A program made the position numbers and the translations under genes. Below are positions 30,062-50,060 of a stretch of DNA of 64,000 bases, one piece after another. The notes below the pieces were generated by a model. The model had not been told where the DNA came from. It was given only the letters and a program-made list of their open reading frames with translations, and ran no database searches. Source of the DNA: Ardenticatenaceae bacterium (GTDB lineage: Bacteria > Chloroflexota > Anaerolineae > Promineifilales > Promineifilaceae); NCBI GenBank assembly GCA_020634495.1, contig JACKBR010000024.1, forward strand, positions 12,921-76,920. Direction: 5' to 3'. How positions within the stretch are numbered: position 1 is the stretch's first letter; each line of letters begins with the position of its first letter.

Positions 30062-30128
30062 CCTGCAAAACATGTGCGTTGGTAAAACGGCCGTTTCCTG
30101 AGCAAAGTACCGCTTAAGTTAGGTAAAG

Positions 30129-30515
30129 TTGGCAGGTTTGGAAGCAAAAGAGTGGGATTATTGCACGATCAAATTTAGCACCTACCACAACATGGGTGGC
30201 GGGGAACATGCGGGCCTAAATTATGGCTTGCTGTGGTTTGTAGCTGAAGCCAAAGGGCCAAACGGCCGTTACAGTGCAGGCAAATCCACCGAAATTCCTT
30301 TTGGTCGCGTAGCAGAGGGCATCCCAGATCAACGCAATGCGGCGCACCAAAGCGTGCATCGCGAGCTAGTTGCAGCCCTAAAAAAAGAAGGCTGGCAACC
30401 AATCTCTGGGGGCGGCTCCGGCTGGTGGGAAAAACGGTTCCGCCGCGACCCAGGCAAAGCGCCACTAACTTTAGGCCAAAAGATTCGCAGCTACTTTTCC
30501 CCGGAAAAAGAATAA
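30129..30515 (+). CDS. Conserved hypothetical protein, 128 aa
   Basis: Starts at TTG 30129 or possibly at the internal ATG 30192 (MGGGEHAGLNYGL). The sequence KEWDYCTIKFSTYHNMGGGE, RNAAHQSVHRELVAALKKEG, WQPISGGGSGWWEKRFRR is a recurrent small-protein pattern (YCTI at the start, GW..W...RF at the end) in Chloroflexota and cyanobacteria; no function is known. No signal peptide. Confidence 0.6.
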   Translation: MAGLEAKEWDYCTIKFSTYHNMGGGEHAGLNYGLLWFVAEAKGPNGRYSAGKSTEIPFGRVAEGIPDQRNAAHQSVHRELVAALKKEGWQPISGGGSGWWEKRFRRDPGKAPLTLGQKIRSYFSPEKE

Positions 30516-30704
30516 TTCTCCTTGGCCAATTGGCCATCTGCCTAAAAAACCTTTGCCTAAAAAACCTTAATCAACTGCCAATCCACATGGTGCATTCCAG
30601 CACTTTTTTGACTATTTAGAGATGCGTTGACAATACGGCCGTTCCCTAAGTAAGATACCCTCTAGCAAATTTGTTCATTTCCCTGTGCTTAAGGAGGATA
30701 AGTT

Positions 30705-31598
30705 GTGAATAATCCCTTGCCCATCCCAGATAACGACAGCGCTGAATTTTTGGACGCCCTCTTTACGGCCGTTACCAACGAAGAGGGCACATTGGCTGGC
30801 GGTGATACGGAGCAGCTCTTTGAAGGAGGAACGGCCGTACAAGGTCTACGCGAAACCAAAATCACCTTTGGCCATCCGCTGCATCGCCTGACGCGCTTAA
30901 CCCCCGCCCTTTTTACGGCTTTGGGCATCGAGTTGGACCCCATACTCAAGAAACAACGGCGGGATTATGAATTTTATTCCATGACGCTGGCCGTCTCGCT
31001 CTCGCCCAAGCGCGGGGCTTCCTTCCAGCGGGTAGAATGTGAGCTACAGTTTGGCCCCGACGGGTTAAAGGCTCCGATTGTGGAAACCATGTTCCCTCAA
31101 ACAAAATGGCATTCTGTTTTGTCCTGGGGCGGCGGCATGAATTTGGCTTTGAACGGCCGTCTCGACTGGGAGATTGGCCTGCCCGACAACGAAGCAGTGG
31201 AAGCTGCCAAGCAGATGAGCGGCGCACCGGCAGCCCAGCTTAAAAACAATAACGAAATGAAAGCCCACATCATCCTCCCAGACTACAGTTTTGAGATGGG
31301 CCGGGTAGAAACCAACGCCGCAGGCGAAGGCAACACCTACTGCCGCTGGCGCATTGAAGACCCGCAGTTGCAAAAAACAGAATCGGCCAACTTTGTTGTT
31401 GTTTTTAAGGTGCCAAAAGAGATTAAAACCATTGAACTAAGCGGCATCGTCACCGCCGATACCAAAATGAGCTGGCTTACCGCCCAGCTAAACAACGTTT
31501 TTGGCGACCTGGCAGATCGCTTCCAGGCGCTGTGGCAGCCCAAGGCAAGGCTGCCCATCGGCGTCAAAGAAACCTGGACGCTGCCTTTGCCAGAGTAA
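30705..31598 (+). CDS. Unknown protein, first gene of the CHAT/MoxR/vWA cluster
   Basis: 297 residues from GTG 30705, chosen because AAGGAGG lies 7 bases before it. No family recognised. Residues 1-50 are acidic and disordered-looking; 50-120 contain GLRETKITFGHPLHRLTRLT and KKQRRDYEFYSMTLAVSLSP; the remainder alternates short strands (CELQFGPDGLKAPIVETMF, NFVVVFKVPKEIKTIELSGI), suggesting a beta-rich fold. No catalytic motif, signal or membrane segment. It precedes the CHAT gene by 161 bases on the same strand and carries three octamers. Inferred role: accessory or sensor component of the conflict cluster. Confidence 0.7.
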   Translation: MNNPLPIPDNDSAEFLDALFTAVTNEEGTLAGGDTEQLFEGGTAVQGLRETKITFGHPLHRLTRLTPALFTALGIELDPILKKQRRDYEFYSMTLAVSLSPKRGASFQRVECELQFGPDGLKAPIVETMFPQTKWHSVLSWGGGMNLALNGRLDWEIGLPDNEAVEAAKQMSGAPAAQLKNNNEMKAHIILPDYSFEMGRVETNAAGEGNTYCRWRIEDPQLQKTESANFVVVFKVPKEIKTIELSGIVTADTKMSWLTAQLNNVFGDLADRFQALWQPKARLPIGVKETWTLPLPE

Positions 31599-31631
31599 TT
31601 AGGTGCTTTGCTCAGTTTTCATTTTTAAATC

Positions 31632-31725
31632 AGTAACTTACGTTACGTAGTTACTCTGGTAGAAACCCTAAGGGTTTTGCAAAACCAGCACCAATTTCCA
31701 GAGCTATAGTAAACCCTTAGGGTTT
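31632..31725. promoter_or_regulatory. Palindrome cluster upstream of the CHAT gene
   Basis: Three symmetrical sites: GTAACT...AGTTAC around 31632-31652, AAACCCTAAGGGTTT at 31663-31677 and AAACCCTTAGGGTTT at 31711-31725. The two 15-mers can pair with each other or act as twin operator half-sites. Operator versus intergenic repeat cannot be settled here. Confidence 0.5.
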
Positions 31726-31759
31726 GCGCTGCGTAACATCAGTCAGTAAGGAAAAATTT

Positions 31760-33154
31760 ATGTCTGACGCTACTTATACTTATCATGTCAACATCATCAG
31801 CCGGGAAAGTGTGCAGGTTCGTAAAATTGATGGAAACGGCCGTTCCGCTGGCAACCCACCCGGCACATTTGGCTACAAAGGCAACCGTAAAAAGCTGATC
31901 GAAAACCTTAGCCAAAAAGCCAATGCACGTACCATTACTAGCGATGAAATCCAAACTTTGGGGGAAACTCTTTTCCAGGTTCTCTTCAACGAAAGCTTGC
32001 GTGTTGATTTTCTCAAAACCTACAATGAGCTTAAGAAAGAAAACAACATCACCCTGCGCCTGGAACTGGGAGCAGATGAAAAGACCTTGCCAGATGTCGC
32101 CGCCCTGCCCTGGGAATTCCTGTGCGCACCTTCCAACGATATTACAGGCCAGGTCTGGCTGGGAACCGATCCCAATGTCGTCCTGTCCCGTACCAGAGAC
32201 CTTTGGGAGCCAGCTGCACCTATTCAGCTAGCCACCAATGAAAAGCTGCGCATCGCTGTGGTCGTCTCCGCACCAACCGATAATCCAGTAAAAGTACTCT
32301 ATGAAAAGCTGTGGCAAGCGTTGCAAAAATTGGCCGAAGATAATTCAGAGAAGATTGAGCTGCTGCCGCTAGTCCAGTCGGCCACCAAAGAAGCGATTGA
32401 TGATCTTCTAGAAGATCATGAGCCTCATATTTTTCATTTTATCGGACACGGCCGTCTCAAAAATGAAGCTGGGAACGAAATTGGAGAAATTGCCCTGATG
32501 CACGAGAGTGGTCAGGCGCGTTGGGTCGATGCGCAACGATTTAGCACCCTGTTTGCTCGCCACCAACCTGGCGTAGTGCTTTTGCAAGCCTGTGAGGGCG
32601 GCCAACTGTCTGCTTCGCAGGCGTTTGCTGGCGTGGCTTCGCAAATTGTGCAGCAGCAAATTCCCGTGGTGGTGGCCATGCAGTATGAAGTCAGCAACAG
32701 CATTGCCCGCAAGTTTGCCGTGGAATTTTACGAGCGGCTGGCCGAGTTTAAGCCGGTTGACGTGGCCGCGCAGGAAGGTCGCAACCGCATCTCTGACTTT
32801 AATTCCAGCCGCAATTTTGCCACGCCCGTCCTTTTTATGCGGGCAGAGAAGGGCCATCTGTTCAGCCCGCCGTCCGCCGCTGCCCAAAACCCAGAGCCTG
32901 TCACGCCTCATGCCCCTGGTGAATTAGCCAGCGAACAACGCAGCCAACTACGGATGAAGCTTAGCAAATATTTTAGCCTGAACGACCTTTATGGCCTTTG
33001 CTTTGATTTGAACATTGACAAGGACAATTTTCCAACAACCCAGGGTAAAGACACGTTTATCCAGCATTTGGTTGAATATTTGGAACGCAACGGCCGTATC
33101 GACCAATTCCTGGCGCTCTGCAAAAGGGATCGGCCTAAGGTACAATGGCCCTGA
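31760..33154 (+). CDS. CHAT-domain protease with C-terminal effector-associated-type domain
   Basis: 464 residues from ATG 31760 (AAGGAA before it; an in-frame ATG at 31724 lies inside a palindrome). The CHAT caspase-like fold spans about 60-370, with a conserved pre-domain (LRVDFLKTYNEL, LPWEFLCAPSND, LGTDPNVVLSR) and the catalytic dyad H230 in FHFIGHGR and C278 in VVLLQACEGG. A Pro-rich linker leads to a helical C-terminal domain (about 393-464: LRMKLSKYFSLNDLYGLCFD, LVEYLERNGRIDQFLALC, KRDRPKVQW) of effector-associated type, like the one ending the 2058-residue protein. I infer activation by homotypic EAD contact and then proteolysis of a target or of cluster partners. Confidence 0.88.
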   Translation: MSDATYTYHVNIISRESVQVRKIDGNGRSAGNPPGTFGYKGNRKKLIENLSQKANARTITSDEIQTLGETLFQVLFNESLRVDFLKTYNELKKENNITLRLELGADEKTLPDVAALPWEFLCAPSNDITGQVWLGTDPNVVLSRTRDLWEPAAPIQLATNEKLRIAVVVSAPTDNPVKVLYEKLWQALQKLAEDNSEKIELLPLVQSATKEAIDDLLEDHEPHIFHFIGHGRLKNEAGNEIGEIALMHESGQARWVDAQRFSTLFARHQPGVVLLQACEGGQLSASQAFAGVASQIVQQQIPVVVAMQYEVSNSIARKFAVEFYERLAEFKPVDVAAQEGRNRISDFNSSRNFATPVLFMRAEKGHLFSPPSAAAQNPEPVTPHAPGELASEQRSQLRMKLSKYFSLNDLYGLCFDLNIDKDNFPTTQGKDTFIQHLVEYLERNGRIDQFLALCKRDRPKVQWP

Positions 33155-33200
33155 GACTTACCCCAACACATCTATAAATCTCAGCATCTAACTTTATGCT

Positions 33201-35144
33201 ATGGGCAGCAATATCTTCACCTTTCGCCTCAATGTAGAAAATAACCAGCAAGTCCTCGCCACAAAAAGCGGCGGTGACGATGGCTGGGCAGGAAACCCCA
33301 ACGGCAAGCTCGGCTTCAAACCCAAAAAACAGCAGCAAATTCAAAGCTTGTGCCAGGCCGTGCACAACAACACCGCCGACAAAGATGATGTACGCAACCT
33401 GGGAAACCTGCTCTTTTCCACCCTTTTTGACGACAGCCTGCGCGTTGATTTTTTGAAAGGGTACAACCACGTCAGAAATCAGCCCAACGGGCTGCTGCGC
33501 CTGGAGCTGGACATTAATGAAGCTATTTTGCCCGAACTGGCAGCTTTGCCCTGGGAATTTATGTGCGTGCCCACAAACAATATCACCAGCGAGCTGTGGC
33601 TGGGCACAGACCCCAATGTGGTGCTGTCCCGCCGCTCAGCGCGGTGGCAGGCGCTGCCCCAGCGCGAATTGGCCCACGATGAACCAATCCGCATTGCGGT
33701 CATTGTGGCCAACCCCAGCGACAAGCCCGACGATATTGATTTCGGCGACCTGTGGCAGCAGGTGAAGCAGTTAGAAAGGAAAGAACCAACTCTTTATGCC
33801 GTAAGGTTAGAAACACAGCCAACTAAAGAAAATTTGGATGCCTTGCTGGAAGGGTTTAAGCCGCATATTTTTCACTTTATTGGTTACGGCCGTTCCCACC
33901 AAAAGCCAGAGCAAGCCACCCCACCCGAAGCTCAAATTGCTGTGCTGCACGACAGCGGGCAGGCCAAATGGGTGTCGGCTGCTCAATTTGGCACCCTGTT
34001 CGCCCGCCATAGGCCAGCGGTGGTTCTCTTTCAGGATGCGGCTTCAGACCAGACCCACCCGGTACCCATCTTCCCGGCTTTGGCCTGCCAGGCCATGACT
34101 CAGGATATTGCCGTGGCTGTGGCCTTACAATATCCTCTGGAAAATACGCGAGCGCACCGTTTTTGCCTGGAGTTTTATCAGCGACTTGCCAAAAACGAAC
34201 CGGTTGATAAATCCGTGCAGGAGGGGCGCGGTTCCATTTCCAATGCCGATTGGTATGAAACCCGCGACTTTGCCAGCCCCATGCTGCATATCCGCGTGGC
34301 CAACGGGCATTTATTTAGCCGCCAGCCCGCGCCCCCCATTGCCAGCCTGCAACCGCCCGACGCAGAGCTGGTGCGCCGCGCCCTGCTAAAGCTCAATTAC
34401 AGCCAACAAGAAACGCACTTCCAGGGCATCACCTTTAAGCCACAGCGCATGGGCGCTTTTTTAATCACCGCCCCCACACCAAACACAGAACCGTATTGGC
34501 TGCTGCACAAATTGGTCACCATGCTGCCCGGCAGCCATGTGCAGGATGAAGTGATTAAGATTGATATGAACATGGCCGATTCACCAGCAGAAACGGCGCT
34601 GTGGTGGGAAACGGTGGCAGATTTTATGGGGCTAAATTTTACCGCCAGCCAACAGGAGATTGTAACGGCCGTAAATGAAGCACGCGCCTACAAAAATTTG
34701 ATCTTTATCTTCGACAACGTCGGTCATTATCCAGGCTGTGTGCAAATCATATTAGACAAATTCTGGCAGCCCTTATCCCAATCAGCCGATCATACCGGGC
34801 AGCAGTGGCAGCTGCTCTTTTTGGTAGAAAGCCAGGGCAGGCTGGGGGAGGACAGTTTAGAAGTTACCGAACTTTCATCACCCACCTGGCAGCCCACCCA
34901 GGCCATACCCTTGCCATCCATAAATAAACACTTTCAGGAATCAGAGCTTCAAAGCTGGTTATTAAAAGATGAAACAAAGGCCATTGAACCGATAGAGCTG
35001 CGCCTGAACCACGACCCCCAAGCGTTGCTCCAGGAAATTATGGTTAAAGAGGGCGAACCCCGCTATGTCATGCGGGCGATTGGTCATTTATGCCAAATTA
35101 GTTGGCAAAGCAAAAAAAGAGAATGGTGTAGAAAATATGAGTGA
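33201..35144 (+). CDS. Catalytically dead CHAT fused to P-loop-less STAND-like domain
   Basis: 647 residues, paralogous to the preceding CHAT protein through residue about 370 (LRVDFLKGYNHV, LPWEFMCVPTNN, LGTDPNVVLSR). The catalytic His is replaced by Y229 (FHFIGYGR) and the Cys position by A280 (VVLFQDAASD), so it should not cleave. Residues about 400-620 resemble a STAND NTPase core whose P-loop is lost: RMGAFLITAPTPNTEPYWLL in place of GxxGxGKT, then KNLIFIFDNVGHY at the Walker-B position. This matches the inactive-STAND (iSTAND) type seen in MoxR-vWA systems. No EAD follows. It overlaps the MoxR start by eight bases, so the two are translationally coupled. Confidence 0.82.
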   Translation: MGSNIFTFRLNVENNQQVLATKSGGDDGWAGNPNGKLGFKPKKQQQIQSLCQAVHNNTADKDDVRNLGNLLFSTLFDDSLRVDFLKGYNHVRNQPNGLLRLELDINEAILPELAALPWEFMCVPTNNITSELWLGTDPNVVLSRRSARWQALPQRELAHDEPIRIAVIVANPSDKPDDIDFGDLWQQVKQLERKEPTLYAVRLETQPTKENLDALLEGFKPHIFHFIGYGRSHQKPEQATPPEAQIAVLHDSGQAKWVSAAQFGTLFARHRPAVVLFQDAASDQTHPVPIFPALACQAMTQDIAVAVALQYPLENTRAHRFCLEFYQRLAKNEPVDKSVQEGRGSISNADWYETRDFASPMLHIRVANGHLFSRQPAPPIASLQPPDAELVRRALLKLNYSQQETHFQGITFKPQRMGAFLITAPTPNTEPYWLLHKLVTMLPGSHVQDEVIKIDMNMADSPAETALWWETVADFMGLNFTASQQEIVTAVNEARAYKNLIFIFDNVGHYPGCVQIILDKFWQPLSQSADHTGQQWQLLFLVESQGRLGEDSLEVTELSSPTWQPTQAIPLPSINKHFQESELQSWLLKDETKAIEPIELRLNHDPQALLQEIMVKEGEPRYVMRAIGHLCQISWQSKKREWCRKYE

Positions 35145-36078
35145 AAAGCAAACCACATTAACGTATACCGGCGATCAATCCAACTTGTCTGAGCCGTATT
35201 TTCCCAGCGATGAGCTGAAGGAAGCGGTGAATATTGCCATTGCTTTGGAACGGCCGTTGCTGCTTAAAGGCGAACCGGGCTGCGGCAAAACCCGGCTGGC
35301 CCAGGCCGTGGCCGAGGAATTCGGCCTGGAGCGCGACAAACAATATTTTGAATGGCACGTCAAATCCACCAGCCGCGCCCAGGATGGCCTGTACATCTAC
35401 GACACCATTGGCCGCCTGCGTGACTCCCAATTAGTCGCCACCCAGCACATCTCAGATGAAGAGCGTGCCCAGCTAAAGCAAAAGCTGGCCGACCCGGAAG
35501 GGCACGTGAATTGGGGCCAGCTTGGGCGTGCCTTTCGCAACCAACACAAACGCGCCGTGGTGCTCATTGATGAAATTGACAAAGCCGATTTAGATTTTCC
35601 CAACGACTTGCTGAACGAACTGGACCGCAAACGCTTTCAGGTACACGAGACAAATCCGCCCATCCCCGTAGCCGCCGCCAAAGGGCACGAGCCCATCATT
35701 TTTGTCACCAACAACGACGAAAAGCCGCTGCCCGCCGCCTTTCTGCGCCGCTGCCTGTTTCACTACATCAAATTCCCAGAACCAAATGATTTGCGCCGCA
35801 TTGTGAGCCACCACGTGGCTCTGGACGAAGAAGATGAACTGGTGAAGAAGGCTGTCGGCCGTTTTTGGGAGCTGCGCGGCAGGATGGTGAAGGACAAACC
35901 GCATGGCGGCAAAAAGGTAAATACCAGTGAGCTGATTGATTGGGTGCGCTACATGAACGGCCGTCCTGACCGGGACAAACTGGCAGAACGACTCACCGAC
36001 GAACTGCTCTTTCCCAGCATCTTGCTTAAGAGCGTGGTGGATTACGGCCGTTACGCCGACAAACCCGACGTTGAATAA
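35137..36078 (+). CDS. MoxR-type AAA+ ATPase
   Basis: 313 residues. Walker A GEPGCGKTRLAQAVA, Walker B RAVVLIDEIDKAD, sensor-1 IIFVTNNDEKPLP and arginine-finger region AFLRRCLFHYIKFPEP; the C-terminal lid follows. MoxR ATPases act as chaperones with a vWA partner, here encoded 102 bases downstream. ATG 35137 overlaps the upstream stop (ATGAGTGA). In the published MoxR-vWA-coupled conflict systems this pair is the NTP-dependent threshold module that holds the effector in check; that role is inferred for this locus. Confidence 0.93.
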   Translation: MSEKQTTLTYTGDQSNLSEPYFPSDELKEAVNIAIALERPLLLKGEPGCGKTRLAQAVAEEFGLERDKQYFEWHVKSTSRAQDGLYIYDTIGRLRDSQLVATQHISDEERAQLKQKLADPEGHVNWGQLGRAFRNQHKRAVVLIDEIDKADLDFPNDLLNELDRKRFQVHETNPPIPVAAAKGHEPIIFVTNNDEKPLPAAFLRRCLFHYIKFPEPNDLRRIVSHHVALDEEDELVKKAVGRFWELRGRMVKDKPHGGKKVNTSELIDWVRYMNGRPDRDKLAERLTDELLFPSILLKSVVDYGRYADKPDVE

Positions 36079-36079
36079 T

Positions 36080-36165
36080 CCGCAGATTGCCCAGATGAAC
36101 ACAGATTTCTCTTAATTCTCTGTGAAGCTCTGTGCCTCCTCTGCGCAACTCTGTGTTCCGCTTTT
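36080..36165. repeat. CTCTGTG-type intergenic repeat between MoxR and vWA genes
   Basis: CAGATTGCCCAGATGAACACAG-type words followed by AATTCTCTGTGAAGCTCTGTG and CAACTCTGTGT. Same family as 9035-9110 and 51903-51965. Confidence 0.6.
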
Positions 36166-36180
36166 TTGTAGGTTAAACGC

Positions 36181-37407
36181 ATGGACCAACTTACAACCGA
36201 ACTAACCAATCTTTATAACCGCCTGCACCGCCAGCCAGAGTTCCCGCTTGTAACCGAGCTAACCAATCTCTATAACCACCTGCGCCGCCAGCCAGAATTC
36301 CCGCTGGGCATCGACCAATTCCTGCTGCTAACTCGCGCCCTGCGCCTGGGCTTTGGCCTGGAAAACGACGACGCCCTGCGCCGCCTGTGCCTCATGCTGT
36401 GGGTTGAGTCGCAAGAAGAGATAGACACCTTCAACAAGCTATTTAACCAGTTCATCACCCCTTTTCCCCAGGAAGAGGCGCCAACAGACCCTACGCCTAA
36501 ACCGACCACGCCCCCAAAATCCCAGGAAGACAAGCCAGCCAAAGAAGAAGATAAAACCGAGGCAAAAAAGGAGCTGCCCAAAGAGAAACCCACCCCGCCA
36601 GAGCCAATTGAACCACCCCCCAAGAGTGAACCAGGCCCGCAAGTCAGCCTGCCTTTGCTGGCGGGCGAGATGGAAATTGCCTACGATCCCCAGCTGCTGT
36701 TCACCGAATATTTGCCCGTCACCGAGCGGCAAATGAAGCAAAGCTGGCGCTTTTTGCGGCGCATGGTGCGCGAAGGCCCGCCCGTGGAAATTAACGTGCC
36801 CGCCACCATCGACAAGCTGGTTCGGGATGGCTTTTTGCTGGCCCCGGTGCTGCAACCGCGCCGCACCAACAAGGCCACATTGCTGCTGCTGCTGGACCAA
36901 AACGGCTCAATGGTGCCGTTCAAAGCGTTTGCCACCCGCCTGGCAAAAACAGCCAAAGAAACAGGCCATTTGGCAAAGCTGGCAGTGTACCATTTTCACA
37001 ACTGCCCGCCTGTGCAACCCACCCTGCTGCCCACTTTGCCGGGCGACTTTTACCGGGAGCATCTCCTCTTCCAAAAGCCGCAATGTGTGCAGCCAGTGCC
37101 AGCCAGCCAGGCGTTGGCCGAATTTGGGCCAACCCTGCCCGGCGTGGTGATTTTTAGCGATGGCGGGGCAGCGCGTGGCGGTTGGAGCCAGGAACGCATC
37201 GAAAGTACGGCGACGTTTATTTTTCAACTGCGTGCCTTGGGCGTGGAGTACATGGCCTGGATGAATCCGATGCCTGCTGCGCGTTGGCAAAAGAGCAGCG
37301 CTGCGGAAATTGCTAAATTTGTCCCCATGCTCAGCCTGGATGCCGCCCAAATGAGTGAGGCGGTGCAGGTGTTGAGCGGCCGTTTTGCGGGAATTACAGG
37401 ATGGTAA
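36181..37407 (+). CDS. vWA-domain partner of MoxR (SAV_2336-like)
   Basis: 408 residues. The N-terminus has an 18-residue segment (TELTNLYNRLHRQPEFPL) repeated at once with three changes, a recent in-frame 57-base duplication. Residues 45-90 form a helical domain, 95-150 a Pro/Lys/Glu-rich linker, and about 232-400 a vWA fold. The MIDAS motif is altered: DQNGSM (D239) where DxSGS is usual, so metal binding may be weakened. VVIFSDGG is present. Similar vWA proteins accompany MoxR and formylglycine-enzyme or protease effectors in related loci. The giant gene starts four bases after its stop. Confidence 0.85.
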   Translation: MDQLTTELTNLYNRLHRQPEFPLVTELTNLYNHLRRQPEFPLGIDQFLLLTRALRLGFGLENDDALRRLCLMLWVESQEEIDTFNKLFNQFITPFPQEEAPTDPTPKPTTPPKSQEDKPAKEEDKTEAKKELPKEKPTPPEPIEPPPKSEPGPQVSLPLLAGEMEIAYDPQLLFTEYLPVTERQMKQSWRFLRRMVREGPPVEINVPATIDKLVRDGFLLAPVLQPRRTNKATLLLLLDQNGSMVPFKAFATRLAKTAKETGHLAKLAVYHFHNCPPVQPTLLPTLPGDFYREHLLFQKPQCVQPVPASQALAEFGPTLPGVVIFSDGGAARGGWSQERIESTATFIFQLRALGVEYMAWMNPMPAARWQKSSAAEIAKFVPMLSLDAAQMSEAVQVLSGRFAGITGW

Positions 37408-37411
37408 TTGT

Positions 37412-40400
37412 ATGGATGTGGTAGACCCCATCGAGGTGGAACTGGCTCAGGAGGCAATTGACGATTTTTGCCGCCAGTTTGGCGCGCCAGGCAGCCATCT
37501 GTACCAGGCGTACCGGGATTTTGCCCGGCACGCGGCGCTGCCTTTAACGTTTACGGCCGATTTGCTGTATCGCCTGCAAGAACGGTTCCGCCGGGACATG
37601 CGGGGCCATGCCCTGCACATTCCTTGGGTGGCTGTGGCCGACCTGATGCTGTCTCATCTTTGCCACCAGGTACGGCCAGAAACGTTTCGCCTGGACGAGC
37701 AAGTGCAAGATGTGCTGCTGGCTGAACTGCAAGAAGATCGAGAGCGGTTTTGGTCGGAAGACGGCCGTTCCAGCCGACTGCAAGAAGTGGCAAATTTTCT
37801 GATAAGTTACGCCGCCCACCAGATGAACCACCCTAGCCATTACGTGCGCGAGGCGGCCAAAGCAGAACGGCTCAATGCCCAGGTGATTATCAATCCAGAA
37901 TGGGTGCGGCAATCTTTGCAGGAAACGGCCGTTACCCTTCAACCCCAGCAAGACCCGGTGGCCACCCTCCGCCTGGCCTCGTTGGTCAATTCGTTTAACC
38001 GCTCTGTGTCCCTCACCCGCGACGAGACCGATCCGACCCGTCAAGATTTTAATAAATTGCGTGCGTACACCGCGGGTCAGGCACTATTGGCGGAAGGGAA
38101 AGCGGTTACGGCCGTATCCCAACAGTTCCAAACCGCCTTTGGCAGCGACAGCAACATCCAAATCGGCGGGCAAACCCTCCCCAGCCTGGGCGAGCTTACC
38201 GGCCAACCTGTCCAGCCCACACTGCAAAGCTCAATCCACATCGCCTTTCCTGGCATGGAAATGACCACATTGTTTGCAAAGGGAACCACTCTGCCAACAA
38301 CTTCTGAACCTGTAACACTTAAACGACTTCCTTTCAGTTTTGTACGTGGCTATGGTCATGATGGCATATTGATTTTTTCTGGTGAATCAAAGTTTGCCCA
38401 TGCAAATTTGCAAATCGGGGGCATCAATATAGACAATGACACGCTTTACAACGATGAGATTGAACTTCAAGTCACAGCCTCAATCGATGCTGCACAAGTT
38501 TTGCAGGTGATTGTTAGCCACGAATCAGGGTTTAGCCGCAATGCCAAAATTTCCCTGACAAATTTAGCCAGTTCGCAGTCCCCATCGGTTCTCGATTTTT
38601 CCACCCTGTTAGAACGCCACATTTCAGGTATTCAAGAAAACGCACATTTACAGGTGCTTACGGCCGTTTCTAACTGGCTACACACCACCGACTCAGAACG
38701 CATCATGATCCTCACTGGGGAACCCGGCATTGGCAAAACAACCATCACCTCACTGATTGCCCAATACTTCCGGGGCGACCGCCTACCCCCCCATAGCCAG
38801 GAGGCCGAAGAAGCCGTGCTCGGCTCACTGCTTATTGACCCCGACGCCCTGTATGAAGTCTCCAACTTTTTACGCCCAGAGGCCTTTTACCGCACCACCA
38901 ACAAATGGATTTACGAATCAATTCTGAGCCTGAGCGAGCGGCGCGAACCGCTGGACTTTGTCACCCTCACAGAAGAACTGCGGCGGCGCGAACAGCTAGA
39001 AGAAGTGGGTGGCGAAGCGTACGTCATCGGCCTGATCAATGCCGTACCGACAGCCATCAACGCCCGCAACTATGCCAAACTCGTGGAAGCCGCAGCCCTG
39101 CGCCGCAAGCTCATCGGAGCAGCCAGCACCAGCGCAGTTTACTTTTGCCAGCCATCATTACCCAACACGCTCGATCCGCGCAGCTTTGCTCTGACAATTG
39201 CCAGCCAGTGGGCCAGCCGCGACAGTAATTTTGCTTACCTGCAAAGCATCATCGACAACCACGAAGAATATGCGCTAGACGAGCTGGTTGAGCGGCTGCT
39301 CATCAAACCGTTTATCGAAAACAGCGAATCGGTTGACCCCAACTCCATCATCTTCCTGGTGGATGATTTGGAAGCAGCCCTGCAATATTCCGGCGACACA
39401 AACATCGTAGACGTGATTTTACGGATGCTGCGCGAGGTTTATGGCGTGCGCTTTTTGCTCACCGCCCAAATGCAAACGGCCGTGCGCGACAAGCTGGCCA
39501 ACATTAAGGCGCAAATTTATGAGCTGCCGCCTTACTTTGCACCCATCTTCAATTTTTCGCCAGCGCTCAACGCCATGCCAACGGCCGTACCCGGATTTAC
39601 AGAGCTGCTGCCCGCCGTGGATGCCTGGTTAACCAGTCCAGAAGCGCCACAGCATGGTGGCGTTTTCCCTGAACAAATCTCTGGAAAATCGGCCGCGATG
39701 GCCAATCTCATTAAATATTCGCAAGGTTTGTTGCCACTGCCACCAGAACTGACTACGAGGTTAACGGCCGTTCAATCTGGATTCATCGCCGCTTACCATC
39801 TTTACCAATCCACCGACCCGCGCACGATGAACCCGCGCTGTTTTATCCAGTCAATCGCCATTCAGCTGGCGAATAAATATTCCGCCTACAACGCCGCCCT
39901 GCGCCAAATAATCGAAAACTTCGCCAACGAGCTGGCCGCGCAAAAAGCGCCTGCCGAGTTCCGTCTGGATGATGACGAGCTGGGGGAAGACCATCCTCAG
40001 CTCAACATCGTCAACCAGATGGGCGTCCTTGAAGCGGTCAAACAACTGCTAATTCAGCCCTGGCAAAGCATTAGCCAACGGGAGCCTGTCCTCATTTTGA
40101 TCGACGGCCTGGACGAGATGCTGGCGTATGCAGGAGCCACAAACATTCCGCTGCTGCTGAACGAGGCACCGCTGCCTGCCTTTCTACGCCTTTTCCTGGC
40201 AGCCAACGAAAATTCAGACATCGTCAATATGCTTGCTGATTTGCGTATACAAAATTTCCGCTGGGAGCAATTTGAGGGGGAACGGCCGTCCGGCACTCGC
40301 CGCCCCGACAGTAAATTTATGCAGGATATGACCATTCCCGATGACAGCCTCATCCAGCCAGGGGAAACCTTTGACAAAATTTGGCAGCTACGCAACACCG

Positions 40401-43400
40401 GCACGCAAAAATGGAGCGAGGGGTTCAGGCTTACGTTTGTAGAAGGTGAGCCAATGACAACTACGTTGAGCCAGCCCATTTTCCCAATTCAGCCTGGGGA
40501 AGAGCTTAGAATTTCAATTTCGCTCACAGCACCAACGCAAAGTGGCTCACACGTCAGCGTCTGGCGGTTGCAAGATGACCGGGACATCTTTTTTGGCGAT
40601 CATGTGTGGGCCAAGATTGTTGTGGATGAAACGGCCGTTCCGCCAGAACCAACCCCCGCCCCCACCTACGACAATTTCGACATCTGGGTTGGTGAAGCTG
40701 ACGACAGGGGACGTCATCCTGTAACCGCAGAATCCGTTGAAAATTCAGCTTGGACTACAAAAGTAAAATGGCAACAACTCGATTCTATTCTTGGTGACAG
40801 TGTTCAAATCCTTACTCAGTTCAATGATTTATTTTCAAAGCCAAGTGAAGCTGTAAAGTTAGGCAAAAGATTGTTCGAATTTCTCTTCCCCGAAGAAGTG
40901 CTTGATCTCTTTGAACAAGTCAGGCAGGATGCAGAAAAACGCGGCAAAAGCAGATTACGCGTAAGAGTTAAATTTGTAGACAGTAATTTACAACGTTTAC
41001 CTTGGGAGCTGTGTCATGACGGCCGTTCCTTCATCTTCAACAATCCCGACCAGCCAATTTTACTGACCCGCACCGTTGGCTTAGACACTGTACAGACACC
41101 GCCACCGCTCCCCCGCCCCGTGCGTCTGCTCGTGGCCATCGCCGCCCCAACAGACCAGGGCCACATTGATGTATACGACCAGGAAAAAATGATCCACTTC
41201 GCAACAGAAGAGCTGGTCACCAGCAGTGAACTGGACTATCAAATAATTCAGCACACCACGCTGCGGGAGCTAGAAAGCACTGTCCAATCCTTCCAACCAA
41301 ACATCGTCCATTTCATCGGCCACAGCAGCAGCGAAAAAGAAGGGTCACTGGTTTTGGAAAATATGTCCAGCCTCAGCAACCTCGTCCCCGTCAGCGAAAT
41401 CAGGCGAATTTTGGCACCCGCCCCGGTGCAGTGCGTGATTTTGAGTCCGGTTGCCGCCGGGGAACGCAACGTCAGCCAATATGGCTCCCAATTCATCCCG
41501 GGCGGGAGCAGCTCGCAAAACGAACCAAATCAGGAAACCGGCATGACCCAACTCGCCCCCCAATTCATCCAGCAAGGCATCCCCACCGTCCTGGCCGGGC
41601 AGTTTGTGCTGGCTGTCAACTCCGCCGTTCAGCTCTGGAAGGCTTTTTACCATGCCTTGCTGTTTGATCGGCTGTCGTTTGAGGAGGCCATCCAAAACAC
41701 ACGCTACCACCTGGCCACCACCCACCGCGAACCCTTCTGGAGCCATGTAACACTTTTTTCAATTCAAGGTTTATCTGAAAAGACCAAATCTTCTAACGAA
41801 AATTCCCCAGAAAAAAGCATAGATAACCAAGCTTTAGGTAACAATTCACTTGAGCAATTCAAAGAAGGATTGCCAAGATTATTCGAAGCGAATCTATTTA
41901 TTTTAGGAGAACCAGGTGCTGGGGCAACCTCCCTTGTCCGCAAACTTATTGAGCCCAACGCATCTACTCCTATTTGGGAAGAAAGCACTGAGGGTATTGA
42001 TATCAATGTTTGGACATTTCCCTTAGCAGATCTTGGCGCAATTGATTCTCAGATCTTCTCGACAATCGATTTTCGGGTCAATGTTTGGGACTTTGGCGGG
42101 CAGGAGATTTACCATGCTACACATCAATTTTTTCTAAGGCAGCGTTCGCTATATGTAATAGTAGCGGATGCTCGCGAACAAAAAACGGACTTTTATTACT
42201 GGCTTAATCTTATTCAACATCTTGGGGATCGTAGCCCAGTAATTATTTTCAATAATGAGATACAGAATCGTCCCTGGGCTATCAACGAACAGAGGCTGCG
42301 GGCCAACTTCCCGGATATTATTCAAGGAGTGTTTGCCTTTAATCTAGCCAACGACAATGAAAGTCTAGCTAATTTACGTATGGAAATTCAGGATCAAATT
42401 ATCAAACTGCCTCACATCGGGGATATACTACCAGTCACCTGGATTAACGTGCGACACGCTTTGGAGGCCGATACTCGGCCTGCTATCTCTCTACAAGAAT
42501 TCTTGCATCTTTGTCTAGAAAACGGCCTCTCTCGGAGAGAGGATGCTCTGCAACTTAGTAGTTATCTTCATGACCTTGGAATAATCCTTCACTTTCAAGA
42601 GGATCCATTACTAAATCTAATTGTTATACTCAACCCAAATTGGGTTACTGATGCTGTTTATCGTGTATTAGACAATGCGATCTTAATGAATAATTTAGGT
42701 TTTTTCAATCGAGAGCATTTGCGCAATATTTGGCATGAAGAAACATATGCTTCCTTAATGGATGAGCTATTAGCTTTAATGATGAAATTTGAGATTTGCT
42801 ACGCACTTCCTCACAAGAAAGATCACTATATCGCTCCCCAACTGCTCAGTGTGCAACCCCCTAATTATGATCTGACTTTAACCACTGCAGAAAGAGAAAA
42901 GAAGAGTTTAGAGCTACGCTATAAGTACGAAGAATTCATGCCCAGAGGAATATTAACACGCTTCATTGTGGCGATGCATTTTCTAATCGTTAATAACCAG
43001 CTAGTGTGGCGCACAGGCGTCGTACTAGAAGAAAATGGTACCCGTGCAGAGGTGGTAGAATTTTACCATCGCCGAGAAATTCGTATTCATGTCACAGGCA
43101 AAAACGCACGTGATTTATTGACAATCATCAGTTTTCAACTTGATGAATTGAATCAAGTATTTCACAATCTCAAATACGACAAGTTGATTCCTTGCAACTG
43201 TACTACTTGTCAGTCGCTTGACGTGCCAAATTTCTATCCCCTGGATATGCTTAAAATGCGGCTAGATCACGACGTAGATATCGTGGAGTGTGATATTCCG
43301 CCATTCAACAATGTAGAAATAAATTCGTTACTTGAAAATATTGGCGTAGCAACACAAACTGAAGAACTATCCAATCTATTACGGCTGCTCGTTACGGCTT

Positions 43401-43588
43401 TTAACATAGAAGAATTCAGAGCAATTTGTGTGGAGTTAGGTATCAATTATGATGATCTAAAGGGTGAAGTGCTTAAAGATAAAAAGCGAGATCTATTGTT
43501 ATTATTGGCACTAAAAAAGCGTCTTCCAGAATTCATAGATTTATTGCGCCGGAAAAGACCAAACCAAGATTGGTCGCTAAACCCATAA
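37412..43588 (+). CDS. 2058-aa VMAP-like fusion: STAND with inserted DnaB-N, second STAND, NBR1-Ig, dead CHAT, Roc-COR, EAD
   Basis: ATG 37412 follows the vWA stop by four bases. Domains in order: helical N-terminus (1-260); STAND core with Walker A TGEPGIGKTT (about 436), then a complete DnaB N-terminal domain (about 458-572: RLPPHSQEAEEAVLGSLL, REPLDFVTLTEELRRREQLE, VGGEAYVIGLINAVPT), then the strand VYFCQPS and Walker B IIFLVDDLE (about 646); second STAND-like unit without a clear Walker A but with VLILIDGLDEML (about 892); NBR1-type Ig (965-1072); CHAT (1090-1450) keeping His (HFIGHSS) but with Cys lost (CVILSPVAAG); Roc with Lys-less P-loop GEPGAGATS (about 1500) and DFGGQE; COR (1676-1930); EAD (1973-2058). 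The Roc-COR-EAD part is AT-richer and octamer-free. Probably the signal-integrating member of the system. Confidence 0.85.
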   Translation: MDVVDPIEVELAQEAIDDFCRQFGAPGSHLYQAYRDFARHAALPLTFTADLLYRLQERFRRDMRGHALHIPWVAVADLMLSHLCHQVRPETFRLDEQVQDVLLAELQEDRERFWSEDGRSSRLQEVANFLISYAAHQMNHPSHYVREAAKAERLNAQVIINPEWVRQSLQETAVTLQPQQDPVATLRLASLVNSFNRSVSLTRDETDPTRQDFNKLRAYTAGQALLAEGKAVTAVSQQFQTAFGSDSNIQIGGQTLPSLGELTGQPVQPTLQSSIHIAFPGMEMTTLFAKGTTLPTTSEPVTLKRLPFSFVRGYGHDGILIFSGESKFAHANLQIGGINIDNDTLYNDEIELQVTASIDAAQVLQVIVSHESGFSRNAKISLTNLASSQSPSVLDFSTLLERHISGIQENAHLQVLTAVSNWLHTTDSERIMILTGEPGIGKTTITSLIAQYFRGDRLPPHSQEAEEAVLGSLLIDPDALYEVSNFLRPEAFYRTTNKWIYESILSLSERREPLDFVTLTEELRRREQLEEVGGEAYVIGLINAVPTAINARNYAKLVEAAALRRKLIGAASTSAVYFCQPSLPNTLDPRSFALTIASQWASRDSNFAYLQSIIDNHEEYALDELVERLLIKPFIENSESVDPNSIIFLVDDLEAALQYSGDTNIVDVILRMLREVYGVRFLLTAQMQTAVRDKLANIKAQIYELPPYFAPIFNFSPALNAMPTAVPGFTELLPAVDAWLTSPEAPQHGGVFPEQISGKSAAMANLIKYSQGLLPLPPELTTRLTAVQSGFIAAYHLYQSTDPRTMNPRCFIQSIAIQLANKYSAYNAALRQIIENFANELAAQKAPAEFRLDDDELGEDHPQLNIVNQMGVLEAVKQLLIQPWQSISQREPVLILIDGLDEMLAYAGATNIPLLLNEAPLPAFLRLFLAANENSDIVNMLADLRIQNFRWEQFEGERPSGTRRPDSKFMQDMTIPDDSLIQPGETFDKIWQLRNTGTQKWSEGFRLTFVEGEPMTTTLSQPIFPIQPGEELRISISLTAPTQSGSHVSVWRLQDDRDIFFGDHVWAKIVVDETAVPPEPTPAPTYDNFDIWVGEADDRGRHPVTAESVENSAWTTKVKWQQLDSILGDSVQILTQFNDLFSKPSEAVKLGKRLFEFLFPEEVLDLFEQVRQDAEKRGKSRLRVRVKFVDSNLQRLPWELCHDGRSFIFNNPDQPILLTRTVGLDTVQTPPPLPRPVRLLVAIAAPTDQGHIDVYDQEKMIHFATEELVTSSELDYQIIQHTTLRELESTVQSFQPNIVHFIGHSSSEKEGSLVLENMSSLSNLVPVSEIRRILAPAPVQCVILSPVAAGERNVSQYGSQFIPGGSSSQNEPNQETGMTQLAPQFIQQGIPTVLAGQFVLAVNSAVQLWKAFYHALLFDRLSFEEAIQNTRYHLATTHREPFWSHVTLFSIQGLSEKTKSSNENSPEKSIDNQALGNNSLEQFKEGLPRLFEANLFILGEPGAGATSLVRKLIEPNASTPIWEESTEGIDINVWTFPLADLGAIDSQIFSTIDFRVNVWDFGGQEIYHATHQFFLRQRSLYVIVADAREQKTDFYYWLNLIQHLGDRSPVIIFNNEIQNRPWAINEQRLRANFPDIIQGVFAFNLANDNESLANLRMEIQDQIIKLPHIGDILPVTWINVRHALEADTRPAISLQEFLHLCLENGLSRREDALQLSSYLHDLGIILHFQEDPLLNLIVILNPNWVTDAVYRVLDNAILMNNLGFFNREHLRNIWHEETYASLMDELLALMMKFEICYALPHKKDHYIAPQLLSVQPPNYDLTLTTAEREKKSLELRYKYEEFMPRGILTRFIVAMHFLIVNNQLVWRTGVVLEENGTRAEVVEFYHRREIRIHVTGKNARDLLTIISFQLDELNQVFHNLKYDKLIPCNCTTCQSLDVPNFYPLDMLKMRLDHDVDIVECDIPPFNNVEINSLLENIGVATQTEELSNLLRLLVTAFNIEEFRAICVELGINYDDLKGEVLKDKKRDLLLLLALKKRLPEFIDLLRRKRPNQDWSLNP
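38785..39128 (+). other. DnaB replicative-helicase N-terminal domain inserted in STAND core
   Basis: About 115 codons inside the 2058-residue gene. They read as a full DnaB N-terminal domain (HSQEAEEAVLGSLLIDPDAL, FLRPEAFYRTTNKWIYESIL, INARNYAKLVEAAALRRKLI) and interrupt a STAND sequence exactly between the P-loop helix (ITSLIAQYFRG) and the next strand (AVYFCQPS). The RecA-like half of DnaB is absent. The frame is continuous on both sides. Confidence 0.88.
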
Positions 43589-43701
43589 CAAATTAGATAA
43601 TTACGGCCGTTTCCCCATCCACACCTCAACTCAATTTCAGAATTGATAGGACTTTACAAATATCTTATACTACAGATCGTTAAAGGCTCATGGAGGCAAA
43701 G

Positions 43702-43911
43702 ATGCTACTAAATGACTTGATTCCAGCTGTAAAAGACCTGCCACGCATTGACAAACTACGCCTCATGCAGGTGCTGGCAGATGATTTGGTTGAGGAAGAG
43801 GGCGCACAGCCAATAATTCTGCGTGAATCATATCCAGTCTGGACGCCTGTTAATGCCATTGCCGCTGGTGAAACCTTGCTTCAACTGCTTGAAAATCACG
43901 AAAGCGCATGA
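43702..43911 (+). CDS. Small antitoxin-like protein paired with retropepsin-like gene
   Basis: 69 residues from ATG 43702, chosen because GGAGG lies five bases before it (an earlier ATG at 43690 would leave no site). LLNDLIPAVKDLPRIDKLRL and MQVLADDLVEEEG are like the N-terminal helices of small antitoxin or addiction-module proteins (LPxxdKLrLmqlLadeL). The stop overlaps the next start as ATGA. It begins 113 bases after the giant conflict gene, on the same strand. Confidence 0.65.
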   Translation: MLLNDLIPAVKDLPRIDKLRLMQVLADDLVEEEGAQPIILRESYPVWTPVNAIAAGETLLQLLENHESA

Positions 43912-44324
43912 CAACGGCCGTTCGCTACCCCTACCTTCCCTCCCAAACAGATCAACCCACAATTCTTTTGCCATTGCTCCCCCTCCAACTTACGTCTAAT
44001 GATCGATCTGTGGAAACCATCGGTCTTTTAGACAGCGGGGCGGCTGTCAACGTGTTGCCCTTTTCCATTGGCCGTCAACTAGGGCTAGTTTGGGAAGCTA
44101 CTCATCCAGAAATCCAACTCACCGGCAATCTAGCAAAATTACCTGCAAAAGGCGTTATTGTTTCGGCAAAAACAGCACATTTCCCTTTAGTCGATCTGGC
44201 TTTTGCCTGGAGCCAATCAGACGAAGTGCCGTTACTGTTAGGGCAGATTAATTTCTTCATGGCGTTCGACGTCTGCTTTTTCCGTTCACAGTCCACATTT
44301 GAAATAAAACCCAAAAGCGACTAG
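43908..44324 (+). CDS. Retropepsin-like aspartic protease
   Basis: 138 residues. IGLLDSGAAVNVLPFSIGRQ contains the D-S-G-A motif of single-domain retroviral-type aspartyl proteases; such enzymes work as dimers. The second conserved hydrophobic-Gly segment is VPLLLGQINFF. No signal peptide. It overlaps the antitoxin-like gene by four bases (ATGA). Pairs of this kind recur in Chloroflexota and cyanobacteria, and the substrate is unknown. Position directly behind a protease-based conflict cluster may or may not be meaningful. Confidence 0.75.
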   Translation: MTTAVRYPYLPSQTDQPTILLPLLPLQLTSNDRSVETIGLLDSGAAVNVLPFSIGRQLGLVWEATHPEIQLTGNLAKLPAKGVIVSAKTAHFPLVDLAFAWSQSDEVPLLLGQINFFMAFDVCFFRSQSTFEIKPKSD

Positions 44325-44389
44325 GCAAAACGGCCGTTCCCTTCCACACATCTGACAAATCCACCACAACCCGCTATCATTCCCCCCTT

Positions 44390-45295
44390 ATGCACACAAA
44401 AGCTTTACCCTACGTGGGCCTTTTAGGCCTGATGTGGGGCACCAACCTTGTTGTTATGCGCGTCGGCGTGGGGCAGTTCGACCCGATGGTTTTTGTCGGG
44501 GTGCGGCTGCTGCTGTCTAGCCTGGCCTTTGTGCTGGTGTACACCTTCTCTGGCCGCCGCCTCATCCCTACCGACCGCAAATTGTGGCTGTATGCCACGT
44601 TTTTGGGCGTGTTTAGCACGGCCATCCCCATGACGGCCGTTGTCTCCTCCCTCACCTTTCAATCCAGCGGCGTTACGGCCCTGCTCATTACCACCGCACC
44701 GGCGTACATCACCATTGCCGCCCACTTTTTCTTGCCCGATGAGCAAATAAATCTCCGCAAGCTGCTGGGCGTTTTTCTGGCGCTGGGCGGCGCGGCGCTC
44801 ATCGTCTTGCGCGGGGAAAGCGGCCTGCCCGATGTGGCCAAAGGCAGCCCAATCGGCTATGCGCTGGTCATGAGCGCCATGCTGTTCGAGACGGTCGGCA
44901 CCATTTTGATTCGGCGGCGGATGCAGCAGTTTAGCGCGTTTGACGTCACGGCCGTTCGCCTCACTGTCGCCGGGTTAACCGTCATGCCTGTTGCCATCCT
45001 GCTGCGCGGCTTTGATTTGTCGCAGGTAACGGGCAGCGGCTGGTTTTCTCTGATTTACGCCACGCTGATTGGGGCTTTTTCGGCCCAAATCCTGGCCTTT
45101 AACATCACCAAGCGGTTTGGCGCGACGGCCTTCTCGCTTACCAGCTACGTTATTCCCGTGGTGGCGGCCGTCACCGGGGTGCTCTGGCTCAACGAAACGA
45201 TTACCCTGTGGATGCTGCTGGGCATGGTGCTGATTGGCGGGGGGATTTTGTTGATAAACGGCCGTCGCAGCCTCAGGCTTATGCCCAATCCTTAA
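44390..45295 (+). CDS. EamA/DMT-family transporter
   Basis: 301 residues, ten predicted membrane segments in two EamA repeats: LPYVGLLGLMWGTNLVVMRV with TFQSSGVTALLITTAPAYIT in the first half, and AMLFETVGTILIRRR through FSLTSYVIPVVAAVTGVLWL in the second. A metabolite or amino-acid exporter in the cytoplasmic membrane; substrate unknown. Four octamers lie in the gene or just upstream. Confidence 0.9.
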   Translation: MHTKALPYVGLLGLMWGTNLVVMRVGVGQFDPMVFVGVRLLLSSLAFVLVYTFSGRRLIPTDRKLWLYATFLGVFSTAIPMTAVVSSLTFQSSGVTALLITTAPAYITIAAHFFLPDEQINLRKLLGVFLALGGAALIVLRGESGLPDVAKGSPIGYALVMSAMLFETVGTILIRRRMQQFSAFDVTAVRLTVAGLTVMPVAILLRGFDLSQVTGSGWFSLIYATLIGAFSAQILAFNITKRFGATAFSLTSYVIPVVAAVTGVLWLNETITLWMLLGMVLIGGGILLINGRRSLRLMPNP

Positions 45296-46232: not shown

Positions 46233-47723
46233 ATGAGCGAATCATCCGATTTTGCCGATGTCTTACAGAATTATGTCAACCAAAGCAGCTATTCTGCCGG
46301 TCAGCTTGCCCGCCTGACAGGCATTCCCAAACCGACCATTTTAAGCTGGCTAGACGGCCGTGTTAAACACCCCCGTTCCTACTCAGATTTGGTTAAGCTG
46401 TCCGAATCTTTACGGCTCAAGCCAGATGAAGCCACCCACCTTTTGGCAGCAGCCGGCTTTATGGATGCTGCCGAAAGGCTCCAGCAAACAGGAGCCGCCG
46501 CCAAAAATGATCGAGCCAAAACGGCCGTTTCTTCCACACCATTCCAGGCCATCCCCATCTTGCCCTATTTTGTAGGCAGGCAAAGCCTGATCAAGCAAAT
46601 TGAAGAAACCTTACTCACCGATCCCACCGTACATGCCTGCTGTTTGCAAGGGATGGCCGGGGCAGGCAAAACGGCGCTGGCGGCACAAATAGCCTACCGC
46701 TTGCGCCCACACTTCCCCGATGGCGTCCTGTGGGCAAATCCGCATCGCACCACGCCAATGACCATCCTGGCCGCATTTGGCAACGCTTACGGCGAAAACC
46801 TGAGCCAGTACGCCGACCTGGAAAGCCGGAGCCAGGTCGTTCGCCAGCTGCTTGCCGACAAACGCATTCTGGTTGTTTTAGATGATGTATGGCATGGTCA
46901 GGACATCTTACCGCTGCTGCCACCATCCACAAAAGGAACGGCCGTGCTCATCACCACTCGCCGCCAAGACCTGTTCGCTACCGCTGGTATGCGCCGCCTG
47001 ACGGTTGGCCCATTCGACGCCTCCCAGCAAGTTTCGTTAAAATTGTTTAACCACTTTCTCGGCGACAACCTGACAAATTCAAATGAAGAATTGCTCTCGC
47101 AAATTGCAGAGTTATTAGGGCATCTTCCCCTGGCCATTGCTATTGCCGCCAGCCGCCTGGCATACGAGCCAAGCTGGTCGCCAGCCGCCTTTTTAGACCG
47201 CCTGGTGCAAACCCAGCAGCTTTCGGAGCTAGAGTTTGAAGACCAAAGCGTACAAATTTCATTCTCTACCAGCTTTGCCCTGCTGGATGACACCTTGCAA
47301 ACCTTTTTTGGTTTAATGGGTTTATTTGGCGGACGCGAATTTACCTCGGCGGCAGCTGCCGCAGTTGCCCAAACATCCCAGCAGCAAGCCGAAGACCGGC
47401 TGCGCAAGCTGTATGCTCTTTCCCTTTGCCAGTTAGGACGCACGGGGGTACAGGCTCGATATCGACTCCATCCGCTACTCAGCAAATATGCCGAAGAAAC
47501 GGCCGTAAGCCAACTGAATGTCCCAGAAGCACATCTAAGACTCATCAACTACTTCGTCGATTATGGTGAAAAGCATCATGACCAACATGAAATGCTGACC
47601 GCCGAAATCAACAACGTCTTCACCGTGCTAGAACTTGCCCAAAAATACAGCCTGCCTGATGCCTATCGTCGCTGCCAGACTGCTTTTGCTCCCGTTTTGG
47701 GCAAACACCATCCTTTCACCTAA
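46233..47723 (+). CDS. HTH-NB-ARC (STAND) regulator with short C-terminus
   Basis: 496 residues. An N-terminal HTH (about 10-70: SAGQLARLTGIPKPTILSWL, DGRVKHP) is followed by an NB-ARC ATPase: YFVGRQSLIKQIEE, Walker A QGMAGAGKTALAAQI, Walker B RILVVLDDVWHGQ, VLITTRRQDL, GLPL-type LGHLPLAIAIAAS, and the winged-helix/MHD region with YRLHPLLSKYAEE. Relatives usually carry several hundred residues of TPR or WD repeats after this point; here the protein ends soon after NVFTVLELAQKYSLPDAYRR. It is either a short natural form or a truncation that lost its sensor repeats. Regulates transcription or triggers a response on ligand binding. Confidence 0.85.
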   Translation: MSESSDFADVLQNYVNQSSYSAGQLARLTGIPKPTILSWLDGRVKHPRSYSDLVKLSESLRLKPDEATHLLAAAGFMDAAERLQQTGAAAKNDRAKTAVSSTPFQAIPILPYFVGRQSLIKQIEETLLTDPTVHACCLQGMAGAGKTALAAQIAYRLRPHFPDGVLWANPHRTTPMTILAAFGNAYGENLSQYADLESRSQVVRQLLADKRILVVLDDVWHGQDILPLLPPSTKGTAVLITTRRQDLFATAGMRRLTVGPFDASQQVSLKLFNHFLGDNLTNSNEELLSQIAELLGHLPLAIAIAASRLAYEPSWSPAAFLDRLVQTQQLSELEFEDQSVQISFSTSFALLDDTLQTFFGLMGLFGGREFTSAAAAAVAQTSQQQAEDRLRKLYALSLCQLGRTGVQARYRLHPLLSKYAEETAVSQLNVPEAHLRLINYFVDYGEKHHDQHEMLTAEINNVFTVLELAQKYSLPDAYRRCQTAFAPVLGKHHPFT

Positions 47724-49925: not shown

Positions 49926-50060
49926 AAGTATTCCTCCTCTTAGGAATGTAGGGTTTTGAACTTTTGCTGAGTCTTTAACTTCCTGTCTTTTTCGTGTCTT
50001 TCCCAATTTACCTCCATTGGCCCTAAAAAATATTTATTCTGTACTGTTTGGTAGGAACGA

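Follow-up and report, generated by a model that had tools for sequence, protein, structure and literature searches.

A DnaB domain inside the ATPase of a STAND protein

The DNA analysed here, referred to as the window, is a stretch of 64,000 nucleotides from an Ardenticatenaceae bacterium (assembly GCA_020634495.1, contig JACKBR010000024.1, positions 12,921 to 76,920). It contains a row of six genes on the same strand, the last of which encodes a large STAND-based protein, P0001, that carries the N-terminal domain of the replicative helicase DnaB (DnaB-N). As the initial annotation had stated, the frame at 37412-43588 (+) runs uninterrupted for 2058 residues, with no inner stop upon translation, and the window contains no N characters. 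P0001 is a mosaic in which, besides the STAND ATPase and DnaB-N, we found a second STAND-like unit, an immunoglobulin-like (Ig-like) domain, a caspase-like CHAT domain, Roc-COR and EAD7. Its parts, in window coordinates, are the following.

37412..43588, + strand, P0001, variable sixth gene of the row, STAND-based mosaic of 2058 residues (open reading frame translation, Pfam)
37412..38209, + strand, N-terminal region, residues 1-266 (comparison with the protein P0002; 32-40% identity to the orthologues in genomes G316, G320 and G321)
38210..39166, + strand, segment differing from P0002, residues 267-585 (P0001/P0002 comparison)
38717..38740, + strand, Walker A motif GEPGIGKT, residues 436-443 (Pfam, sequence motif)
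38777..39130, + strand, DnaB N-terminal domain, residues 456-573 (Pfam, PDB matches, DnaB of relatives, structure model)
39347..39367, + strand, presumed Walker B-like motif IIFLVDD, residues 646-652 (sequence motif)
40331..40624, + strand, Ig-like domain N_BRCA1_IG, residues 974-1071 (Pfam)
40862..41752, + strand, CHAT peptidase-like domain, residues 1151-1447 (Pfam, sequence)
41894..43561, + strand, Roc-COR-A-COR-B plus EAD7, residues 1495-2050 (Pfam)

The assignment of P0001 to the STAND class comes from the P-loop side, where NPHP3_N scored 59.8 bits (cut-off 24.8) and NACHT 28.9 bits (cut-off 26.7), and from the presence of both a Walker A and a Walker B of STAND type, the latter being the motif that we take to be Walker B-like. 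The best stretches of the P-loop models (NPHP3_N, NACHT and nSTAND3) end at residue 455-458, and the DnaB-N family PF00772 was matched at residues 459-559 (model positions 2-102/103). The domain thus sits between Walker A and the Walker B-like strand. In the initial annotation it had been described as lying between the P-loop helix and the next strand, which was borne out by the Pfam match (E = 8.7e-32) and by the spacing: measured with one pattern, the stretch separating the P-loop from the strand that follows it counts 145 residues in P0001, versus 43-44 in P0002-P0006 and 38 in the homologues from G316, G320 and G321. These eight homologues, from which the remoter relatives P0021-P0023 were left out, make up the measured set, and none of them has DnaB-N at this site. 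The limits proposed earlier (residues 458-572, about 115 residues) needed a slight revision, the best placement being 456-573.

The insert matched 14 distinct PDB chains by sequence, all named replicative or DnaB helicases; among them, the 114-residue DnaB chain 1jwe, which we take to be the isolated N-terminal domain, was matched over positions 2-113. The C-terminal helicase domain PF03796 was not found in P0001 by the Pfam scan, and the DnaB equivalog models aligned with only their N-terminal part (120.4 bits, against 780 for the best). In a structure model built from an alignment of DnaB relatives, which held no relatives for the STAND part, residues 465-544 had a predicted local distance difference test score (pLDDT) of 80-94 in blocks of ten. 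The same model matched the DnaB-N of Mycobacterium tuberculosis (2r5u) with a target template-modelling (TM) score of 0.78-0.83 and a root-mean-square deviation of 1.3-2.3, in agreement with the earlier claim that the segment has a DnaB-N fold. Overall, we consider a real insertion very probable.

In the helicase, the DnaB N-terminal domains pack into the collar and also bind DnaG, so that the insert might act as a tether, docking the STAND protein onto either DnaG primase or DnaB itself, or else as a surface aiding multimerisation. The PDB titles of the structural matches do include DnaB with DnaG C-terminal domains. However, the insert stops within the helix leading into the helical hairpin, which, on our understanding of the DnaB structure, would likely leave the collar contacts incomplete, and we regard a role of this kind as very unlikely.

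Origin of the insert

Over residues 456-572, the identity to the DnaB protein P0024 is 97%. The insert gave 1348 matches, and for each of the best 120 of these 1348 the Pfam column lists PF03796, the DnaB helicase family; measured against the same 120, the only insert residues that were rare (<10%) were 463, 496 and the joint residue 574. Within the order to which G168 belongs, the insert was matched in 50 of 56 genomes, the best matches being those in G316-G319 (91-94%). In G316-G319 the TGT gene found in the window has 92-94% identity (G319 is only partly covered), so the host is close kin of these genomes.

When the insert was compared with the dnaB genes of these four relatives, the synonymous divergence (dS) was 0.71-0.98 and the nonsynonymous divergence (dN) 0.030-0.048. 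Against G318 and G316, 13 genes of the window gave, in 21 comparisons, dS = 0.52-1.10 and dN = 0.028-0.184, and the four dnaB genes among themselves gave dS = 0.42-0.80 and dN = 0.008-0.039. As the dS of the insert resembles that of the neighbouring window genes, its divergence is about what would be expected of the host's own dnaB. The insert therefore seems to have been under dnaB-like constraint until recently.

By comparison with P0024 and with dnaB of the relatives, the insert would be a copy of a host protein domain, and these data suggest that it was probably captured from dnaB of the host lineage, not long ago. We rejected an old, conserved domain because of the nearly unchanged DnaB sequence together with the absence from the eight homologues measured. 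We also considered an intein-related origin, given the intein families that accompany 14 of the DnaB matches described below, but P0001 has no intein family in Pfam. A viral origin was dismissed after a scan of viral contigs yielded no P0001 relative.

A variable segment and its junctions

P0002 is a partial protein of 1333 residues from the metagenome-assembled genome of an Anaerolineales bacterium. It differs from P0001 at one position in residues 1-266 (residue 255) and at four in the 745 residues from 586 to 1330; in between, at residues 267-585, the two are widely different. Because of this near-identity outside the segment, the two very likely represent one gene within a single species. 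Within the segment, P0002 has an EAD7 (its residues 456-516) directly before the P-loop and no DnaB-N, whereas P0001 has DnaB-N directly after the P-loop, which suggests that the segment was exchanged between strains; 38210-39166 thus seems to be a site of module swaps. We consider a recent, strain-level capture of host-lineage dnaB inside a varying segment likely.

The last gene varies elsewhere as well. P0003 carries Trans_reg_C, P0005 a response regulator, APH and TCAD9, and the G316 protein four EAD7 stretches. The last genes of G316 and G320 encode 1191 and 1261 residues and match the N-terminal region, STAND, CHAT and EAD7 parts of P0001 by tblastn, with no DnaB-N or Roc-COR match (tblastn; for G316 also Pfam).

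The GC content changes along P0001 from piece to piece, being 0.58 for residues 1-265, 0.47 for 266-455, 0.59 for DnaB-N, 0.52 for 574-1475 and 0.40 for 1476-2058. The Roc-COR-EAD7 tail (window 41837-43585) thus has a GC content of 0.40, versus 0.47-0.59 in the preceding pieces. The tail is 61-62% identical to a separate Roc-COR-EAD gene of G318, in which leucine-rich-like repeats, seen by eye, lie upstream of the matching part; for this identity the tail looks acquired, and it is apparently a second captured module.

Judged from the relatives' dnaB genes and STAND proteins, the two joints of the insert would lie as follows.

38780..38783, + strand, left junction, shared bases CGCC (as many as 14 nt should the STAND donor have had Leu at this place)
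39123..39131, + strand, right junction, shared bases CCAGCACCA, up to 9

At the left joint, which reads GAC CGC CTA, the Asp codon is STAND-like and the Leu codon DnaB-like, and CGCC fits both. Joints of this type were likely made by short-homology recombination, and a join by the assembler on so few shared bases is unlikely.

Search for other fusions

The initial annotation had proposed a search for other proteins with the same insertion point. No second STAND protein with DnaB-N was found among the matches listed. A search restricted to long proteins (at least ~1130 residues, a limit that favours intein-bearing DnaB) gave 22 proteins, P0001 itself not being one of them: five STAND relatives lacking DnaB-N (P0002-P0006), 14 DnaB helicases and three other proteins with NPHP3_N. 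Intein or homing-endonuclease families appear in the Pfam column of the 14 long DnaB helicases (P0007-P0020).

A 321-residue query matched 281 of the 298 genomes of the class, and the matches listed overlap its DnaB part (positions 57-174). In all 42 DnaB-N loci tested (39 distinct places) the helicase domain is present, if not whole then with about the first 50 residues ahead of an intein or the end of the locus; this set leaves aside loci L058-L061 and L063 and further matches, some of them with long frames (for example in G286, G188, G250 and G165). When we looked for sequences spanning the joint, scoring the 8000 candidates of 176-562 residues that shared most words with the query, none of the 120 listed of 1782 matches did so: all have the DnaB family, and their coverage of the query does not exceed 51%. 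A plasmid search returned only partial relatives of P0001, none covering 80% of the query, and searches in one collection of open papers listed none whose title concerns a STAND or NACHT protein with a DnaB domain.

The fusion was seen nowhere but in this window, which speaks against broad retention and would also fit an artefact, such as a dnaB gene and a STAND gene of a mixed community fused by the assembler or in chimeric molecules. Such a chimera would account for the failure to find another sequence across the joint among the matches listed, and a second, near-identical allele does exist elsewhere. Yet there are two joints, on the same strand and both in frame, sharing ~4-14 and 9 bases, which should be below the usual k-mer overlaps, and the chromosome around the row is syntenic with G318 on both sides. 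We therefore judge a chimera quite unlikely.

The six-gene row

The five genes preceding that of P0001 are as follows.

30705..31598, + strand, opening gene of the row, without a Pfam family, with matches in G316 and G320 (Pfam, tblastn)
31724..33154, + strand, CHAT + EAD7 protein (Pfam, tblastn)
33201..35144, + strand, CHAT-like + iSTAND protein (Pfam, tblastn)
35065..36078, + strand, MoxR-like AAA+ ATPase, AAA_5 (Pfam, tblastn)
36181..37407, + strand, von Willebrand factor A (vWA) protein of CoxE type (Pfam, tblastn)

The six genes presumably form one operon; G316 and G320 contain the same six in the same order, with 31-55% identity in the best segments (tblastn). The iSTAND family PF19995 was matched at 33201-35144 (E = 5.8e-14, 53.2 bits, cut-off 24), AAA_5 (PF07728) at 35065-36078 (E = 5.9e-13, a family match that marks the protein as MoxR-like), and the CoxE-type vWA family PF05762 at 36181-37407 (E = 6e-8, 32.8 bits, cut-off 26.4). 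By gene content, the row is an iSTAND-type MoxR-vWA system as described in PMC7159879, with a predicted anti-invader role. PADLOC gave weak matches on P0001 (at most 25.2 bits), and the neighbouring CHAT + EAD7 protein matched SAVED_CHAT with 47.9 bits. For the first gene, neither Pfam nor PADLOC nor NCBIfam yielded a match within the limits set, yet it accompanies the row in G316 and G320, with 41-43% identity.

In the CHAT domain of P0001, ILSP occupies the position where the first CHAT of the row shows QAC. If this position is the catalytic motif of CHAT, as we assume, the domain is likely inactive.

The genes flanking the row are syntenic with G318 and G316, while the row itself is missing from the syntenic place in both (the G316 copy lies on another contig), so the six genes are an island within an otherwise conserved stretch of chromosome. 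In the window interval 28806-45295, aminotransferase and EamA genes flank the row, and between these flanks G318 and G316 (loci L069 and L071) have different DNA, in which an ABC transporter was weakly matched. Beyond the island come a protein with helix-turn-helix and NB-ARC (46233-47723) and a solute-binding protein (47955-50006), both unmatched in the G318 stretch searched (L069), though the genes on both sides of them were matched.

Relation to known systems

Plant immune receptors of the nucleotide-binding leucine-rich repeat type provide one term of comparison, since their integrated decoys are likewise copies of a host protein domain within a STAND immune-type protein. Integrated domains in plants are usually appended or placed between modules, and are kept under selection; in P0001, by contrast, the copy interrupts the nucleotide-binding core, and retention across strains or species is not seen, the insert being absent from all eight homologues measured, P0002 included.

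A closer counterpart is found in the bacterial systems described by Kaur et al. (PMC7159879), who predicted that iSTAND MoxR-vWA systems act against invaders and proposed that inactive modules from cellular subsystems are taken up as decoys. As in those systems, iSTAND (PF19995), an AAA_5/MoxR-like ATPase, a CoxE-type vWA protein, CHAT and EAD7 stand here side by side, and variable modules, some inactive, derive from cellular subsystems. The MoxR of the published systems is described as having none of the N- and C-terminal extensions of the VMAP systems. Our row differs in comprising six genes, with the variable parts on a separate large STAND-CHAT gene, and in the placement of the module within the ATPase core; PMC7159879 nowhere uses the word DnaB in its main text. 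The decoy idea is thus already known for this class of systems, and this would be a new instance of it at an unusual place. The passages on decoys in PMC12409349 mention no captured host domain.

Two further systems share single traits with P0001. For bNACHT25 (PMC12169576), a NACHT-type ATPase likewise tied to a host protein, DnaJ is required for phage detection and is guard-like in the authors' model; compared by description only, it differs in that the abstract mentions no captured host domain. In MoxR-vWA ternary systems (PMC10907252) the sensors also vary rapidly, being diversified in their lectin-like domains through reverse transcription by diversity-generating retroelements, whereas the variation in our gene looks like recombination and module uptake (no search of the window for such retroelements was made).

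Possible function and significance

In the account that we favour, DnaB-N was likely copied recently, and in frame, from the organism's own dnaB into the ATPase loop of the last subunit. The join presumably came about through recombination where 4-14 bases match on one side and up to 9 on the other, with the replacement of some nine to twelve loop residues. The domain is predicted to fold on its own in this loop, which links the P-loop helix to the strand after it, and if functional would project beside the nucleotide site. A protein that docks on the N-terminal face of DnaB, such as host primase or a replication protein of a phage, would then press on that site and thereby switch both the STAND ATPase and the CHAT/EAD7 output. 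The boldest reading that fits the data, to which we give a rough probability of 0.18, is that P0001 is an immune ATPase which has just taken up a piece of its own replication helicase, as phage bait, into the ATP-binding core, where a phage factor binding it would switch the ATPase directly: an integrated decoy at birth. As the CHAT domain of P0001 is likely inactive, the output would be that of the separate CHAT + EAD7 protein, possibly recruited through EAD7. The bait reading is reasonable because Kaur et al. (PMC7159879) proposed such decoys for these systems.

Of the integrated decoy suggested in the initial annotation, the complete DnaB-N between Walker A and Walker B has held up, and the gene row is of a predicted conflict type, while the decoy function has no direct support. 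The insert is nearly unchanged host-lineage dnaB, is absent from P0002 and the other homologues measured, and lies inside a nucleoside-triphosphatase core, all of which would be expected if illegitimate recombination had put a dnaB piece into one strain's copy, to be lost again or with the ATPase already disabled. Against such a non-functional accident, the reading frame of 2058 codons is preserved across the two joints, the captured piece is a whole domain (1jwe being matched almost throughout), and the downstream sequence equals that of P0002 at 741 of 745 residues. We consider the accident plausible, at somewhat less than even odds; the current data fit it about as well as, or better than, the bait reading. 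We lean towards the capture origin and setting described above, which overlap with these rivals on function. That the insert has any bait or sensor function is in our view doubtful, the remainder being a harmless or damaging accident.

Several observations weigh against the account favoured here. The insert interrupts the ATPase core and could simply break the STAND ATPase, and it shows none of the changes expected of a selected sensor. Its dS to the four relatives is somewhat higher than theirs to each other. The donor and the short homologies are deduced from the dnaB genes and STAND proteins of relatives, and the insertion is known here from assembled sequence alone. Neither structure model gives a STAND core around the insert: in the model from DnaB relatives, pLDDT was 51 for the first insert block, 66, 67 and 44 for the last ones and <60 for the STAND part, and a model from STAND relatives had a mean pLDDT of 52, with 27-60 in the insert blocks, a poor result that we put down to its alignment, in which the final helix of DnaB was paired with the P-loop helix of P0003-P0006. 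To these points should be added the outcome of the searches for a second fusion and for a sequence spanning the joint.

The step of module uptake may nonetheless be visible here in one strain, since the donor type, the insertion site and a near-identical uninserted allele can all be named, which makes capture, folding and function directly testable. If the insertion is real, it would also show that a domain of 118 residues can be accommodated between the two Walker motifs of a STAND gene without loss of the reading frame.

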